Source: Spirogloea muscicola (Eukaryota > Streptophyta > Zygnematophyceae > Spirogloeales > Spirogloeaceae). Taken from it: a stretch of 28,551 bases of DNA. The position numbers and the translations under genes are program-made. Positions 2,359 to 14,740 of the stretch are shown here, piece after piece (the first letter of the stretch is position 1; each line of letters begins with the position of its first letter). A model generated the notes under the pieces. That model was not told where the DNA came from, did not search any database, and saw nothing but the letters and a program-made list of their open reading frames with translations. The stretch lies in assembly GCA_009602725.1 (NCBI GenBank), contig WELB01000261.1, forward strand, positions 1 to 28,551. The letters run 5' to 3'.

Positions 2359-5300
2359 ATGTTACAAGCAAGCGCTGTGTCGGCCTTGTCCTGCCTGTTC
2401 ACAAGCACTTGCTGCTCCAGCCCCAGCTTCCGCCCCAAAGGATCTGGGACACTGGACACAACAAGATTGCCATGTATCTCCAAGCAAAGAGGACAACAAA
2501 CGGGAGACGCATGCACCAGCATCGCCCATGATGCTATTACTGGTACTTCCAATGACAAGGTAACCAGCACCTCCTACTGGACCACCTGCATTGTCAGAAT
2601 ACAGCTCGCTGGCTGCGGTCTTTGGTGTGCAAGCTAGCAAGTCAATGTCAAATTTTCTGCATTTGTATGATGCAGAAGTCTGCAACGAGTGTCACTCTCC
2701 AGGCTTCGGCTGGCGCAACTAGCTGCATTGTCAAAGCTGAGCTGCCAGACGGTAGCCTGCATGAGTTCCCATCGGTGCAGCATCAAGAGGACTTCTGGAC
2801 AGTATGGCGGCACCTGGTAATTTAGCTTGTCCAAGCTGGTGTAAATTTCTGATGCTCACACAATATGAGGCAAATCTTCTGTACAGACTTTGGGCAATCT
2901 GAGAGCTGACAGGATAGCACAGTCAACGCATGAATATCTGAGCAAGCCACCAACAGGGTAGTAGACAAGTGTGCAGCCTATCTACTTCAATTTCTGGCCA
3001 GTCTATGCTTCGACCTCCTTTTAGCAAAGGCCAGGGCTGTGTTAAGGACTTGCCCGTCCTCAAAACTTGCAGATGCCGCTTCACACAGAGAGCACGAGCG
3101 TCATCAATGCAGGCGTAGAGAGGGAGATGATGTACCCTCTCACTCGCTTGCAAGCACGAGTTGCTGACTGTGCAAGCGTCAACCTTCGTCAACAAAACAT
3201 CAACCAGCTTATATCATCCCTAGAGGCCAGACTCTTGAGGTGAGGTCTCGAGTTGTTGACTTGGAATCCTTGTTTGTAATGATTGTCACAAAGACTTAAG
3301 GCCAGGTGGAATGGAAAGCGCTGCTCGTCTGGATCAGTGCACATATACACCACTAACTATGGCAAAAGGTAGGACATGCTACCAAGGATAGGGATAGAAT
3401 GGTACTCCAAGTGCCAAACCATGCAGTCCAGGTTCGCATCTTTCTTAAGTTCCTTCTGTCTTTTGTACCAGGACCAAGCTAGATGCTATTGCAGCGCCCC
3501 AACTCGGCCTGCCTTACAAAGCCGTGGCACTTAATCTCGTGGAATCCAGAGTAGCTACTCAAGGCAAGCAGGGGACTCAAGCAGAGCAGATTCAGCTGTT
3601 CATCAATCCATACATTATTTGGCAATCTCGGGCTCCAAAGCACGCCAAGGAGAGCTGTGCATCGCTGGCAGGCCTGTCACTTGGCATTGCTGTGAGTGAC
3701 TCAGTGTTACCGTGGTCAAGCAAATCAACAATTGTGTACTGCATTTGCAGTATCGCTGCTCGTCAAATTCTTGCAATTAAAGTGGTAAAGTGGCTTGCAT
3801 GGTGGAGGAAATAGCTAGCTGGATGTACAAACCACAAGCAATTTGATCAGGTCCTTTGTAATGCTGATCAAACAGAGACCAGAATGCTTACTCGTTGCAG
3901 CACAGAATGGTAGAGGAAGGTGGTTCCTGTCACTGGTTAGTCTCTTGATCCCTGAGTTCATCTGCTGCAATGTGATGGTCAAGAACAATGGCGTTCTTGT
4001 GACAATCTTCAAGCTTGCATGTCGTTTTTGGTCACAGTGAAGCAGTTTCGGCTGCATCGAAGCCAGACAAGCCAGACAAACTCATCACGCTACAAACTAA
4101 GCAAACAGTTTCCTGCTCTTTGTGTCGCTACTTGTGGTGTAGAGCAGCTCCGCGGCAGAGAAGCACGCGCTTTGGGACGTGCATTTGACTACATTGCCGG
4201 CATCCTTCCTCTGGACCGAGTTAAAGAGAAGGTATCAATATGAGAGAGGCCCCAACTACCGAGGCAAATTGGTGTGTGGTTGTCTAAGTTAGGTGCTTGC
4301 TTGCTTTCCTCCTGAGGTTGCCAAATTCTGTTCTTGCAGACAAGGAGGGCAGTTCGCCACGAGCTGAGAGCACAAGAAGCAGCTGCTTGCAACATGTGCC
4401 AGAAGCACAGCCTAGTTGCACAGAAGTCCGAAGCTGCAGTGTGGGCAGCTTCGGTGCAGTGGCGTTCACACAATTGTGGGCCCCGGATGGATCACCCCGC
4501 TTGCTTTGCAGCATACCATGAAGCAGGCCATGCTGTCATGGGCTGCCTGTTGCCGTTGACTCGGGTATGCAAGCTTGGGATGGGACTTTCCTGATTAGTT
4601 TGTTTGTCATTGATGGTTACTGAGCCGCATGATGTATGACCTCATGACTGATGACTGATGAAAGGTATACTGTGGAGCTTAGGTTGAGGGTGTGTCTTTG
4701 ACGAGGAGAGGCTGGCGGGACTATACAGGCGGCACTGAAATCGTCTGGCAGGCAGTAGAGCTGAAGTTTGAAGACCGTATTCGGCAAGCAATGGCTGTCT
4801 GGCTAGGGGGACTGGTATGATGCCAAATTGCTGAATTGCTCTCCGATAGTACCTCATGTCAGAAATCGGGCGTACATTTCATAGACACCTCGACCTCTCA
4901 ATGCTACTAAGATTTCGAGAGGTCTACCTTATCGCATACAACATAGGGTGCTGCTTTTTGTGAATCCCACTGTGGTCCAGGTTACATGACCATTATCGGA
5001 AGTCACTAATACCTGCCTCTTGCAGGCGGCAGAGGAGCTGAACCACCTAAACCAAATTGCTGAATTGCTCTCCGATAGTACCTCATGTCAGAAATCGGGC
5101 GTACATTTCATAGACACCTCGACCTCTCAATGCTACTAAGATTTCGAGAGGTCTACCTAACACTAACACCTGCCTCTTGCAGGCGGCAGAGGAGCTGATG
5201 TTTGGGCGCGCAGATCAGTATGGCAGCCGGGAGGGTTGCATCACCTTCTCAGACGACCTTGTCAATGGTGAGCTCTACAAGGTCAAGTGTCCTCTTAGCC

Positions 5301-6336
5301 TAAGGCTCTCGCTTTGTGTAATTCCATACCGTTCACTTCCTTCCGTGCTTTACGTGACAGTACTGGCTCGATTTTGGCCACTTCATTTCAAGCGCACCGC
5401 CATCCTCTGTCTTCTCAGAGCGCAGCAAGCCAGTGCCTGCAAGAACATGTAGCACTACTTGCACTTTGAGTCGCCTTCATCCTGGCTTTTGCTGTATGCC
5501 TGAAGCACATAAGCTCTTTTTGACATAGTCTTGCTGCTGGTGCAGTGGCAGCCTTAGCGACAGCATTTGCAGCCGCCTGCCGCATAGAGCAGGCTCGAGC
5601 ATGCGGGGCCGGCGAAGTAGATGGAGCTGTGCGGAAGTTGGCAACTGCGCCTGAAAGCACGGGCTGGACTCAGCCGCTCTTCACATGGTCCCGAATGGCT
5701 CAGCCTACTGCTGCTGCTTCTTCACAGAGCTCAAATTGTTGGGTCAGGAACGCATCAGCTCCAGTGGCCGCGCTGGTTGACGATGATGATGCAGCAGTCA
5801 ACATCCCAGACTGGGCAGCCCACATGCCAGGAGGTTCTGTGCACCTCGGCAAGATCGTTGCAGATACATCAGTCAAGCCTCTGCCTGGTGATCGGCGAGA
5901 GGCTGGGTCTCTGTCTCCTCCCACCAACTCATGCTGGAGGCGACCCTTGTCCTTACGATGCACCGGGCCTCATGAAAGCCGTATGCTCGAGCTGGTCGAC
6001 TCAGCTTATCAGGTATTTGACTTATAACCTTCCACCACAGTGTCCGTTTAGCCTGCCACCCATGATGTATTCCAGCTGACTAACCACTTTAGGAGATCTC
6101 ACCCTTGAGCGTGCTCTTATAGCTAGCCATTGACTGCTTGACTGATCCATCTTCCAGCTGAAAGTGTAGGGCAGGCCCATCAAGCTGAGATGAACATTTT
6201 TGCATCCCAGGTGGCTAATCAGATTTTGGTTGCACATGAGAGTGCACTGCACAAAATTGCTGGCCTGCTTATGGATAGAGGACGGGCCTCCACGTCCGAG
6301 ATATATGGAAATTTGAAATCACCTAACAGCTCGTAG
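2359..6336 (+). CDS. PDF-like domain joined to an FtsH-type M41 metallopeptidase domain
   Basis: Exons: 2359-2559, 2676-2816, 3073-3239, 3472-3691, an unresolved part within 3692-4142, one starting at 4143, 4145 or 4148 and ending 4231, then 4340-4564, 4683-4814, 5183-5267, 5546-6012, 6211-6336. Every resolved junction is GT-AG and agrees in phase. The protein is roughly 640 residues. Exon 1 begins with a Ser/Thr/Ala/Cys-rich stretch with no acidic residue in its first 30, like an organelle presequence. The next part follows deformylase order: LISSLEARLL helix, AIAAPQLG (3488-3511), FINPYII, ESCAS (3650-3664), then ALGRAFDYIAGILPLDRV. The HExxH that should sit at 4178-4192 reads RAFDY. About 65 unassigned residues follow. 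The M41 part has AYHEAGHAVMG (HEAGH 4517-4531), VEGVSLTRRG, WLGGL joined to AAEELMFG, SDDLV (probable third ligand) and a C-terminal ILVAHESALHKIAGLL. No Walker A, Walker B or SRH is seen, so this is not a whole FtsH. The M41 and PDF identities are firm; one transcript joining them is an inference. Confidence 0.72.
4823..5197 (+). repeat. Tandem duplication of an intron end and 3' splice site within the M41 region
   Basis: The 107 bases at 4823-4929 recur without visible change at 5052-5158. The segment ending CTGCCTCTTGCAGGCGGCAG then AGGAGCTG is present at about 5004-5040 and again at 5161-5197. A 229-base tandem duplication followed by loss of about 72 bases from the second copy explains the pattern. 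Only the second copy continues into the conserved AEELMFG exon at 5183. Using the first acceptor (exon from 5026) would give about 38 residues and then a stop. Confidence 0.9.
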
Positions 6337-6582: not shown

Positions 6583-7211
6583 TCAAAAGGGCACTTCAAT
6601 GAAGCCAGCAAGCAGGAGGTAACCAAGAATACCGGCAGGAGGGAGGAGAATTGCCAGGCCGATGCCCAGAAAGAGGGGGACATCGTTCCGCTTGGCCACA
6701 GTATCTAAGTAAGCCTGCCGTCTTATGTTTCGCCGCTGCGAGATGGTCAGCTCAGGCCTGACCAGGGCCAGCCTCACCTCGTCCTCCTCATTGCTCTCCT
6801 CGAGCTTGCCCTTGAGCTGCTCAGCTATGGAGGCAGCCCCGGCTTGTCGTCGCCGGCTGTCGCCTGGCACACAGCGAGCCCAAGGCGTCTGTCAAACAGT
6901 GCCCAGCACGACCACCTAAACCTACACAAACGAAAACACCATGCGACAGCCCAAGTGGCGTTCTATCGTTTGCCGGAGCACCAACAGCCAGCTCACTACT
7001 ACATTGGACATTTCCAACTTGTCGAAGTCACAGAAGAGAGCCACTCTGTAAGGTCCTGGCCTGCTGGCTACTGCTTCTGCCACTCAGCCCCTGTGAAAGT
7101 TTGCCCGGCTCGCGATCGCTCGATTACCAGGCTCACTGCCGGCCCTGCCCGGGCTCGCCAGCCTCTCCAGCAGGTCCAGGCTGCTCCGGATGCTCGCCGT
7201 CGCCGTCCCAT
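6583..7211 (-). CDS. Small basic-N-terminus membrane protein, unknown family
   Basis: Two exons, 7211-7128 and 6888-6583, joined by a GT-AG intron in phase 0, give 129 residues. The start ATG at 7211 opens MGRRRRASGAAW, an Arg/Ala/Trp-rich stretch without acidic residues that could be an organelle presequence. The middle is polar and charged (EQLKGKLEESNEEDEVRLAL), then QRRNIRRQAYLDTVAKRND. The C-terminus is hydrophobic, VPLFLGIGLAILLPPAGILG and then YLLLAGFIE, enough for one long or two short membrane passes with a Pro-Pro kink. The pattern of a short charged region before one C-terminal hydrophobic hairpin resembles small plastid or mitochondrial assembly proteins, but I do not recognise the family. 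Exon 2 is well supported; exon 1 rests on splice phase and composition. Confidence 0.55.
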
Positions 7212-12487: not shown

Positions 12488-14740
12488 CGCCGCGGTGGCA
12501 CGCCCGCATGGGCTCGCTGGCCGGCTGCGCGGTGCTGGCGCTAGCGGATGCGCTGCCGCCAAGCGAGTGGCTGGCCGCGGTGCGGCGGGAGGCGGCGCTG
12601 GAGCTCTGGGTGGCCGGCGTCAAGGAGGAGGCCGTGAGGGCGGGCATCCGGCGGGCGGTCGTGGACGCGGCGCTGGCCGGCGTCCGGCCCGCCGAGAGCG
12701 TCGCCGAGAAGGACGCCAGCCAGCCGGAGGCCCGGCTCTCGGCGCAGGACTACATCGCCAGGTGAGGAGCCGCTAAGCCAATCCGGGTGCCCCCACTGTG
12801 GAGCACGTGGGTGAGCAGGCCCTGAAGCGGCACTGCTGACCTCAATACCCAAATGCTAAACCCTTGAAACATAAACCCCTAAAACCTCTAAATCCTTCAA
12901 TCCTAAACCCTTAACCCACCAAAGTGGTGCTTGGCAACCTCCGCAGCGTAGTCTGCGAGCCGCGCATCTCGCGCGGCGTGTCGGCGTACGAGGAGGCCCG
13001 GCTGCTGCTGGAGGGGGTGGAGGCGGAGTACGGCGTGCCGGCGCCTATCCTCGCTGCGCTGTGGGGCATTGAGAGCAGGTGCTGCTCCTGCTCAGCAGCA
13101 AGGATTATCTTCCTATCTCACTACTCCAGTTGCTTACATGTAGCAAGTTGATGAAGTGGGTGGTATGACGGTCCGGAGGCGACCTCTCTGGACCGAAGAA
13201 TGCACATCGCGTGGTGGTGAACATAAGTACAGTGCATCTAGGTTCCAAGCAGTGACCTGCGCAATGGCGTCTGCTGAGAGGGGAGCTTTGCTGTTTTCTT
13301 GGGTGAAGCTATGGCCAGAATTGCGGCTCCTGGGACCTGATCGAGGCGCTCGTGACTCTCGCGTACAACAATGCGCAGGCAAGCTGTCGGCTGCATGCTT
13401 TTTGTTGCTCCTGGTCTCGAGCTCTGCTAGTTGCTTGCTCGCTGCTTACCGAAGCTCTTGTATGTGCAAGCCTGATGCGTGCGATAATATCAAAAATGAC
13501 GCCTGCTCTACACCTTTGGGTTGGCTCTTCTGTCTGCCAGCCCCACCGTGCCACGTACTTCCGGAAGGAGCTCATTGACGCAATGCACATCATGGAGGAC
13601 ATGGCGTTGACGCCCCAGGATTGGCGCCTCAAAGGCTCGTGGGCGGGCGCCATGGGGCAATGCCAATTCATGCCCTCCAGCTACCGAGCATATGCTGTGG
13701 ACTACGACCACGATGGCACGGCCGGTTAGTGACACAGCATGCACTCATGGCCGTCCGCTTGATGTTGTCGCTTTGAGCAATGCTGGAGAAGCTGTTCTAG
13801 ATCTTGCACAAAGAGGCACCACAAGCATGCTTGCATCGCGCTTAACTTGGAGAAGTCCTTCCATTGCCCATTTGCTCATTGATTGGTGTCACTGACTCGC
13901 TCTTGCGGGGCTTGCGAATGTTACCGAAGGCTTGACTATAAAGCTCAACTGCCCCTTGTGAACGATGGCCTCGCAGATATCTGGTCATCTCAAGCTGATG
14001 TATTTGCATCCATGGCCAATTACCTTCGAAAGAATGGTTGGCAGGTCGGGGACCCTTATGGCCAAAGGGTGAGTCTGTCCTTGCTGCCACATGCATAGTA
14101 CCTCAAGTCTGCTGCTTACCCTGAGCGCGTGAAAGCTGCTGAGTATTTGTTTCTTGCTAGACCTGATTTTTGACGCTGAGACGTGGTTGTCTGCATACTG
14201 CACAAATAGTGCAAGGCTTGTGACTTGCTGTTGCTTCTTTGTAACATCCGCTGATGTTTGGTACTGCAGGTTGAGATTCTAGGTAAGATTGACAGGAGCC
14301 TGCTCGGTTTGAGGACAAAGAAGCCGGTGAGAGAATGGGAAGCGCTCCATCAAGTCAGCCCGCTGTGCTCCACTGGAGAGCCAGTTCTGCCAGCTGACGC
14401 CCTTGCCAGCCTAGTACGTATCAACACAGCACCTTCCAATTGCTATGCCCTGCTTGATGAGTCATCCAAGTGATGGATAGCTGTCTTTTTTCTCAACAAC
14501 ACAATCTATTGCAAGAATAAGTTCTTCACATTGCGAGTCATGGGTCCTCAGCCTGGCTTCTACATGCAACATCTGTGGTGTCTGCAGTTGACACCAGATG
14601 GACCCCACGGTTATGCATACCTGGCATGTGACAACTTCAGGGCTATCATGCGATACAACCCTTCCACGCTCTACGCCATCTCTGTGGGTGAGCTAGCCAG
14701 GAACTTGGCTGTGCGCGTTGGAAAAGATGGCGGGTCATGA
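12488..14740 (+). CDS. MltB/SLT_2-type lytic murein transglycosylase, multi-exon
   Basis: Exons: (gap) to 12761, 12947-13078, 13309-13378, 13541-13724, 13977-14068, 14270-14413, 14588-14740. From the first in-frame ATG after the gap (12508, GSLAGCAVLALADA, signal-like) they give exactly 342 residues; a start inside the gap is possible. Bacterial MltB-family enzymes cleave the MurNAc-GlcNAc bond of peptidoglycan and form 1,6-anhydro-MurNAc. Family blocks appear in order: WVAGVKEEAVRAGI and DASQPEA; RISRGVSAYEEA; YGVPAPILAALWGIESSYG with the catalytic Glu (codon 13071-13073); LIEALVTLAYNNAQ; YFRKELIDA; WAGAMGQCQFMPSSY; DIWSSQADVFASMANYLRKN; GWQVGDPYG; DGPHGYAYLACDNFRAIMRYN; YAISVGELA. The intron at 13379-13540 has a GC donor (GCAAGC); the rest are GT-AG. 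TGTAA lies at 14792-14796, about 52 bases after the stop. Introns rule out bacterial contamination; transfer from a bacterium or the plastid ancestor is inferred. Target compartment unknown. Confidence 0.9.
12853..12918 (+). repeat. Degenerate CCCTAAA-like tract in an intron
   Basis: Within intron 12762-12946 there are about eight imperfect units of the form CTAAACCCT, ATAAACCCC, TAAAACCTC and CTAAACCCTT. This is the same telomere-like unit as at 1634-1735 but more decayed, and here it is not in a recognisable transposon. Confidence 0.65.

Follow-up and report, generated by a model that had tools for sequence, protein, structure and literature searches.

A predicted nuclear gene of Spirogloea muscicola that joins a pseudo-deformylase fold to an M41 peptidase domain without an AAA+ module

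The closest described systems to the gene reported here are the FtsH-type proteases and the plastid-type peptide deformylases (PDFs). Alone, an FtsH-type protease without its AAA+ module should be unable to pull folded proteins apart. Arabidopsis VIRESCENT3 is an M41-like protein reported to lack this module, and Adam et al. 2011 and Giglione et al. 2003 are cited by papers on formyl-methionine (fMet) and deformylation. Compared with FtsH (M41, PF01434), our gene has in common the HEAGH motif, the GG-AAEEL block and the C-terminal helices, but it differs in its absent AAA+ module, the lack of a clear membrane segment and a long, weakly constrained insert. The FtsHi pseudo-proteases offer another parallel, since in them, too, a chloroplast protease family has retained an inactive enzyme domain (PMC8197885). 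They have lost the protease site and have AAA+ intact; our gene has an intact protease site and no AAA+, and its inactive domain is a deformylase. Plastid-type PDF (PF01327) is matched in fold, block order, Pfam family and the positions of two host PDF introns; it has the HExDH motif and the motif I glycines, both of which our gene has lost, and our gene is fused to a protease. M41-like frames without AAA+ already exist; what is new here is that a deformylase fold precedes the M41 domain.

The window, meaning the whole stretch of DNA analysed, comprises 28,551 nucleotides of contig WELB01000261.1 (C261). Eleven exons on the + strand, from 2359 to 6336, join into an open frame of 635 codons plus stop, and the alternative frames of the joined coding sequence contain 19 and 26 stops. 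Exon boundaries were picked by eye, using frame and GT-AG, and were afterwards tested against an independent copy on another contig, C90. The features are as follows.

2359..2559, + strand: exon 1, ATG and N-terminal extension, rich in Ser, Thr and Ala
2676..2816, + strand: exon 2, N-terminal extension, splice sites common to the window and C90
3073..3239, + strand: exon 3, start of the pseudo-deformylase, phase 2 at the exon end
3472..3691, + strand: exon 4, PDF motif I and motif II, boundaries as in the host PDF gene
3876..3935, + strand: exon 5, PDF strand RPECLLVAAQNGRGRWFLSL, its start at an intron site of the host PDF gene
4148..4231, + strand: exon 6, degenerate PDF motif III and start of the C-terminal helix
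4232..4339, + strand: junction intron between the PDF and M41 halves, phase 0, GT..AG, 108 bases in both copies
4340..4564, + strand: exon 7, linker, then the M41 zinc motif HEAGH (residues 351-355)
4683..4814, + strand: exon 8, M41 as far as WLGGL
5183..5267, + strand: exon 9, M41 with AAEELMFG and SDDL; D435 is the candidate third zinc ligand
5546..6012, + strand: exon 10, last part of the zinc-site half, then the weakly constrained insert and the beginning of the C-terminal helices
6211..6336, + strand: exon 11, M41 C-terminal helices, then stop

An alternative acceptor for exon 6 is possible at 4145. Three other choices were rejected: an extra exon at 2887-2957 is followed by an in-frame TAG and carries a 1-base indel relative to C90, an exon 5 start at 3819 meets a stop in C90, and a start at 3851 has the wrong phase. 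Neither exon 1 nor exon 2 had a match in the Pfam search. The first 60 residues of exon 1 are without Glu and this exon is a possible transit peptide; a plastid location is a guess from the N-terminal composition. Within intron 8, a 107-base repeat (4823-4929 and 5052-5158) is 100% identical, and a 38-base repeat (5004-5041 and 5161-5198, 97%) extends into exon 9, duplicating its acceptor and first bases so that an extra acceptor precedes the true one by 157 bases. The C90 copy has these repeats in single copy; the doubling could provide a decoy acceptor or could stem from faulty assembly.

The earlier note on this DNA had placed a deformylase-type domain and an M41 domain in this gene and suggested a profile search of the spliced protein; both families were indeed matched above their curated Pfam cut-offs after splicing. 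Pep_deformylase (PF01327) covers residues 140-293 (E 4e-17, 62.7 bits, cut-off 22.8) and Peptidase_M41 (PF01434) covers residues 348-420 in two stretches (E 8.6e-13, 49.0 bits, cut-off 29.9); the C90 protein scores 67.7 and 49.8 bits against the same cut-offs. In an unspliced, exon-by-exon profile search, PDF was detected at 3485-3679 (25.1 bits) and the M41 exons stayed below significance, not reaching E 0.001. Against NCBIfam, the spliced protein scores under the cut-offs of the deformylase models and far under that of the FtsH equivalog model (39.1 against 600 bits). The note's description of PDF family blocks in order stands for the fold blocks, but the catalytic block HExDH is absent. Likewise, its complete M41 domain is borne out by the match, but the domain is not compact, with about 110 weakly constrained residues inside it. 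Its statement that a PDF-like fold, and no AAA+ module, precedes M41 agrees with our search, in which no AAA family appeared among the Pfam matches of the protein up to E 1. Nor did a simple hydropathy scale reveal a clear membrane anchor, the maximum 19-residue mean in the window protein being 1.37. The usual threshold for a membrane segment is about 1.6.

The PDF part was duplicated from the host's own deformylase gene. A conventional PDF gene is present in three copies (C68, C56 and C217) with GVGLSAPQ, EGCLS and QHEFDH. In all three, an intron ends ahead of motif I at an acceptor that leaves a single base of an Arg codon, with ten codons to the Gln of the motif (its donor was deduced from the open frame of the exon upstream), and the next intron, in phase 0, follows residue 14 counted from the Glu of motif II, exactly in front of an Arg-Pro pair. 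Both introns occur at the identical place and phase in the window gene, where the start of exon 5 had been fixed prior to this comparison and agrees with it; the sharing of two introns with all three host copies shows the duplication of a nuclear PDF gene. A PDB sequence search with the PDF part returned 29 distinct sequences at E up to 1, of which 28 are named deformylase; the differently named 3uwa aligns with the same deformylase motifs.

This domain is predicted to be no working deformylase. Motif III, HEFDH in the host and consensus (QHEFDHLxGxL), reads RAFDY in the window (GRAFDYIAGIL) and RGIDY in C90, so that both His metal ligands and the catalytic Glu of HExDH are replaced in both copies. 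Motif I is LDAIAAPQ in place of GVGLSAPQ, with AAPQ kept and both Gly lost; the L, D and A found in both copies occupy what we take to be positions G43, I/V44 and G45 of E. coli PDF. Motif II is ESCAS in place of EGCLS, in which the Gly and Leu are changed and the Glu and metal-binding Cys are kept, this Cys being the sole metal-binding residue remaining in the PDF part.

In the M41 part, HEAGH is intact and lies within the aligned M41 stretch. Its eleven PDB matches (best E 7.5e-4) comprise nine named FtsH, one AFG3L2 and one unrelated dehydrogenase subunit. An alignment to a profile built from four host M41 sequences places D435 on the family Asp, the third zinc ligand, with low certainty, and the C90 alignment ends before this Asp; the same profile locates the C-terminal M41 helices at residues 582-625, beyond the weakly constrained insert that separates them from the zinc-site half. 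Host FtsH genes with AAA+ were found on other contigs (14 of 383 candidates were scored in the second scan). One of these, on C88, was considered as the source of the M41 part; its intron adjoins the WLGGL/AAEEL join in a different phase and thus does not match. A scan of genome contigs with exon 7 gave seven loci, namely three FtsH with AAA+ (L015, L016 and L018) and four from Bradyrhizobium (L012, L013, L014 and L017). The latter carry AYHEAGHAVMG around base 3001 in frames of 145-231 codons from stop to stop, encoding small M41-like proteins with no AAA+ in frame; they resemble our gene in having a HEAGH-type site without AAA+ and differ in having no deformylase fold. A scan of viral contigs with the two-protein alignment matched 44 stretches and confirmed none, and both its patterns derived from the N-terminal extension, so the scan has little to say on PDF or M41.

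The PDF-then-M41 order is repeated in a second, diverged copy in the same 153-Mb genome. Among 20 matches to PF01327 up to E 1, C261:3485-3679 and C90:499010-499195 (31.8 bits) cover the same profile range. Searches with exon 7 and exon 2 found only the exons themselves and C90 (498131-498355 at 95% for exon 7, and 87% for exon 2), and exon 10 found itself, C90 (83%) and a weak match on C104 (E 0.09). Two aligned pieces spanning the gene have 85-86% DNA identity, the exon order is as in the window, and no frame-breaking indel precedes the stop of the C90 copy. All ten donors are GT in both copies and nine of the ten acceptors are AG in both, the exception being exon 5 (CAG in the window, CAA in C90). 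Exon lengths differ by 3 bases in exon 3 and 9 bases in exon 4, and one further base differs in exon 11, downstream of the C90 stop. In nine of ten introns the copies differ by indels, most of them 1 or 2 bases long, and the junction intron has none. Identity is 86.5-96.5% in exons and 76.0-88.9% in introns, which by itself does not discriminate between them. Several other gene families occur as three closely similar copies, each on a different contig, as would be seen in a polyploid or in an assembly left uncollapsed (C68/C56/C217, C14/C61/C36, C69/C19/C36 and C79/C124/C88); the fusion was found twice.

Comparison of the two copies over 627 aligned codons, with exon 5 treated as coding in both despite the acceptor loss in C90, gave an overall dN/dS of 0.33 (95% 0.24-0.44) at a dS of 0.19, and no stop or frameshift. 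For the domains and their junction the values are 0.20 (0.11-0.37) for PDF exons 3-6, 0.15 (0.02-0.38) for the exon 7 junction linker and 0.17 (0.06-0.37) for the M41 core, with p 1.0e-6 for the PDF part and p 1.4e-4 for the M41 core when tested against neutrality. Exon 6 and the exon 7 linker together contain 13 silent and 7 replacement differences, a surplus of silent ones across the junction (p 1.1e-4). Exons 1 and 2 and the M41 insert are without clear constraint: exon 1 is itself weakly supported (0.65, 0.24-2.57), the value for exon 2 (0.89) has an open upper bound, and upper bounds above 1 also accompany exon 5 (1.00), the exon 10 insert (0.59) and the C-terminus (0.36). Since the catalytic residues are lost in both copies, this loss most simply predates the split between them. 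Constraint appears to have gone on after catalysis was lost, and the PDF part looks like a pseudo-deformylase that selection has maintained since then.

The halves very probably form one fused gene, as far as the genomic sequence can tell. Exon 6 ends and exon 7 begins in phase 0, as the earlier note had stated, and the GT..AG boundaries and phase are common to both copies. It is quite unlikely that a degenerate PDF gene and an AAA-less M41 gene merely lie side by side and appear joined. Such an arrangement could draw on two ATGs that lie in frame within exon 7, at residues 310 and 341 and both ahead of HEAGH, and on in-frame stops in the gap, where one TGA has a common position in both copies and the window has an additional earlier one; however, the 108-base gap has no indel between the copies and, in the window, no in-frame ATG, exon 7 is constrained upstream of HEAGH (7 silent and 4 replacement differences), and of the 18 codons preceding its first ATG only 3 differ between copies, 2 of them silently. 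TGTAA is the polyadenylation signal of green algae; it is absent from the gap and also from the 364 bases downstream of the stop, so its absence is uninformative about the gap. A joint gene that is decaying into a pseudogene is also unlikely, though it would accommodate the lost PDF catalytic residues, the lost exon 5 acceptor of C90, the second exon 9 acceptor created by the window repeat, and the finding of only two copies where the host PDF and several FtsH have three. Against decay stand the uninterrupted frame of the aligned codons, exon 5 included, and the overall dN/dS given above.

For this fused gene, the earlier note had envisaged an N-terminal formyl-Met reader next to a protease. 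The idea has a basis in the literature: a recogniser-protease has been postulated with FtsH as a candidate, and blocking deformylation destabilises chloroplast D2 (PMC4745127, PMC5354579, PMC13234167); the known fMet recognins Psh1 and TRIM52 belong to the eukaryotic cytosol (PMC13234167). The Gln of motif I and the Glu and Cys of motif II, all retained, could also speak for it. However, both His ligands, the catalytic Glu, and both motif I Gly with the residue between them are changed; with no metal and a D at position 44 in E. coli numbering, the pocket should not function as in PDF. Binding of fMet in the manner of a real PDF is therefore unlikely, and a reader of this kind is disfavoured and rather improbable. 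We tentatively prefer, as a reading that may well be right, one nuclear gene in which a pseudo-deformylase docking domain is fused to an AAA+-less M41 metalloprotease. Having lost deformylation, the PDF domain might serve for docking or as a scaffold, a role suggested by the loss of catalysis, and could bring the protease its substrates, perhaps nascent proteins of the organelle. A PDF fold would be plausible for nascent chains because PDF itself binds near the ribosome exit (PMC5354579). Without AAA+, the protein would take unfolded chains, nascent chains or peptides as substrates, or force would come from a partner ATPase: the M41 protease may work on such chains without an ATP motor of its own or may join an ATPase-bearing partner. 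Its role as a degradation machine is predicted from the intact HEAGH. Counting against the docking fusion are the acceptor loss in C90, the dN/dS ranges above 1 in exons 1, 2 and 5, the exon 10 insert and the C-terminus, and the low certainty of the M41 Asp.

Among the matches listed in a search of open-access titles and abstract beginnings, neither a PDF-M41 fusion nor a pseudo-deformylase was found, which is weak evidence that none has been described. A natural joint between a PDF fold and an FtsH-type protease would provide a concrete protein for testing the link between deformylation and proteolysis, and the fusion could be a putative new way to bring proteins to a protease.

The surroundings of the gene contain further features. 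Directly downstream, a minus-strand open frame at 6586-6891 has a hydrophobic C-terminus and, up to E 0.01, matches no Pfam family; over the aligned extent its DNA is well conserved in the C90 copy. Upstream, a frame at 616-792 with KFLYGLKQAPRAYLMYDTFLQERL resembles a Copia reverse transcriptase remnant, and degenerate TTTAGGG-like repeats at 1620-1740, on both strands and inside the contig, are similar to plant-type telomere repeats. The genome contains 68 exon matches to the light-harvesting family PF00504, so the organism is photosynthetic. At 12915-14095, intron-split exons match SLT_2, a bacterial-type lytic transglycosylase (E 1.6e-9, 3.5e-27 and 7.1e-12), a peptidoglycan-type enzyme encoded in the nucleus of a photosynthetic eukaryote.
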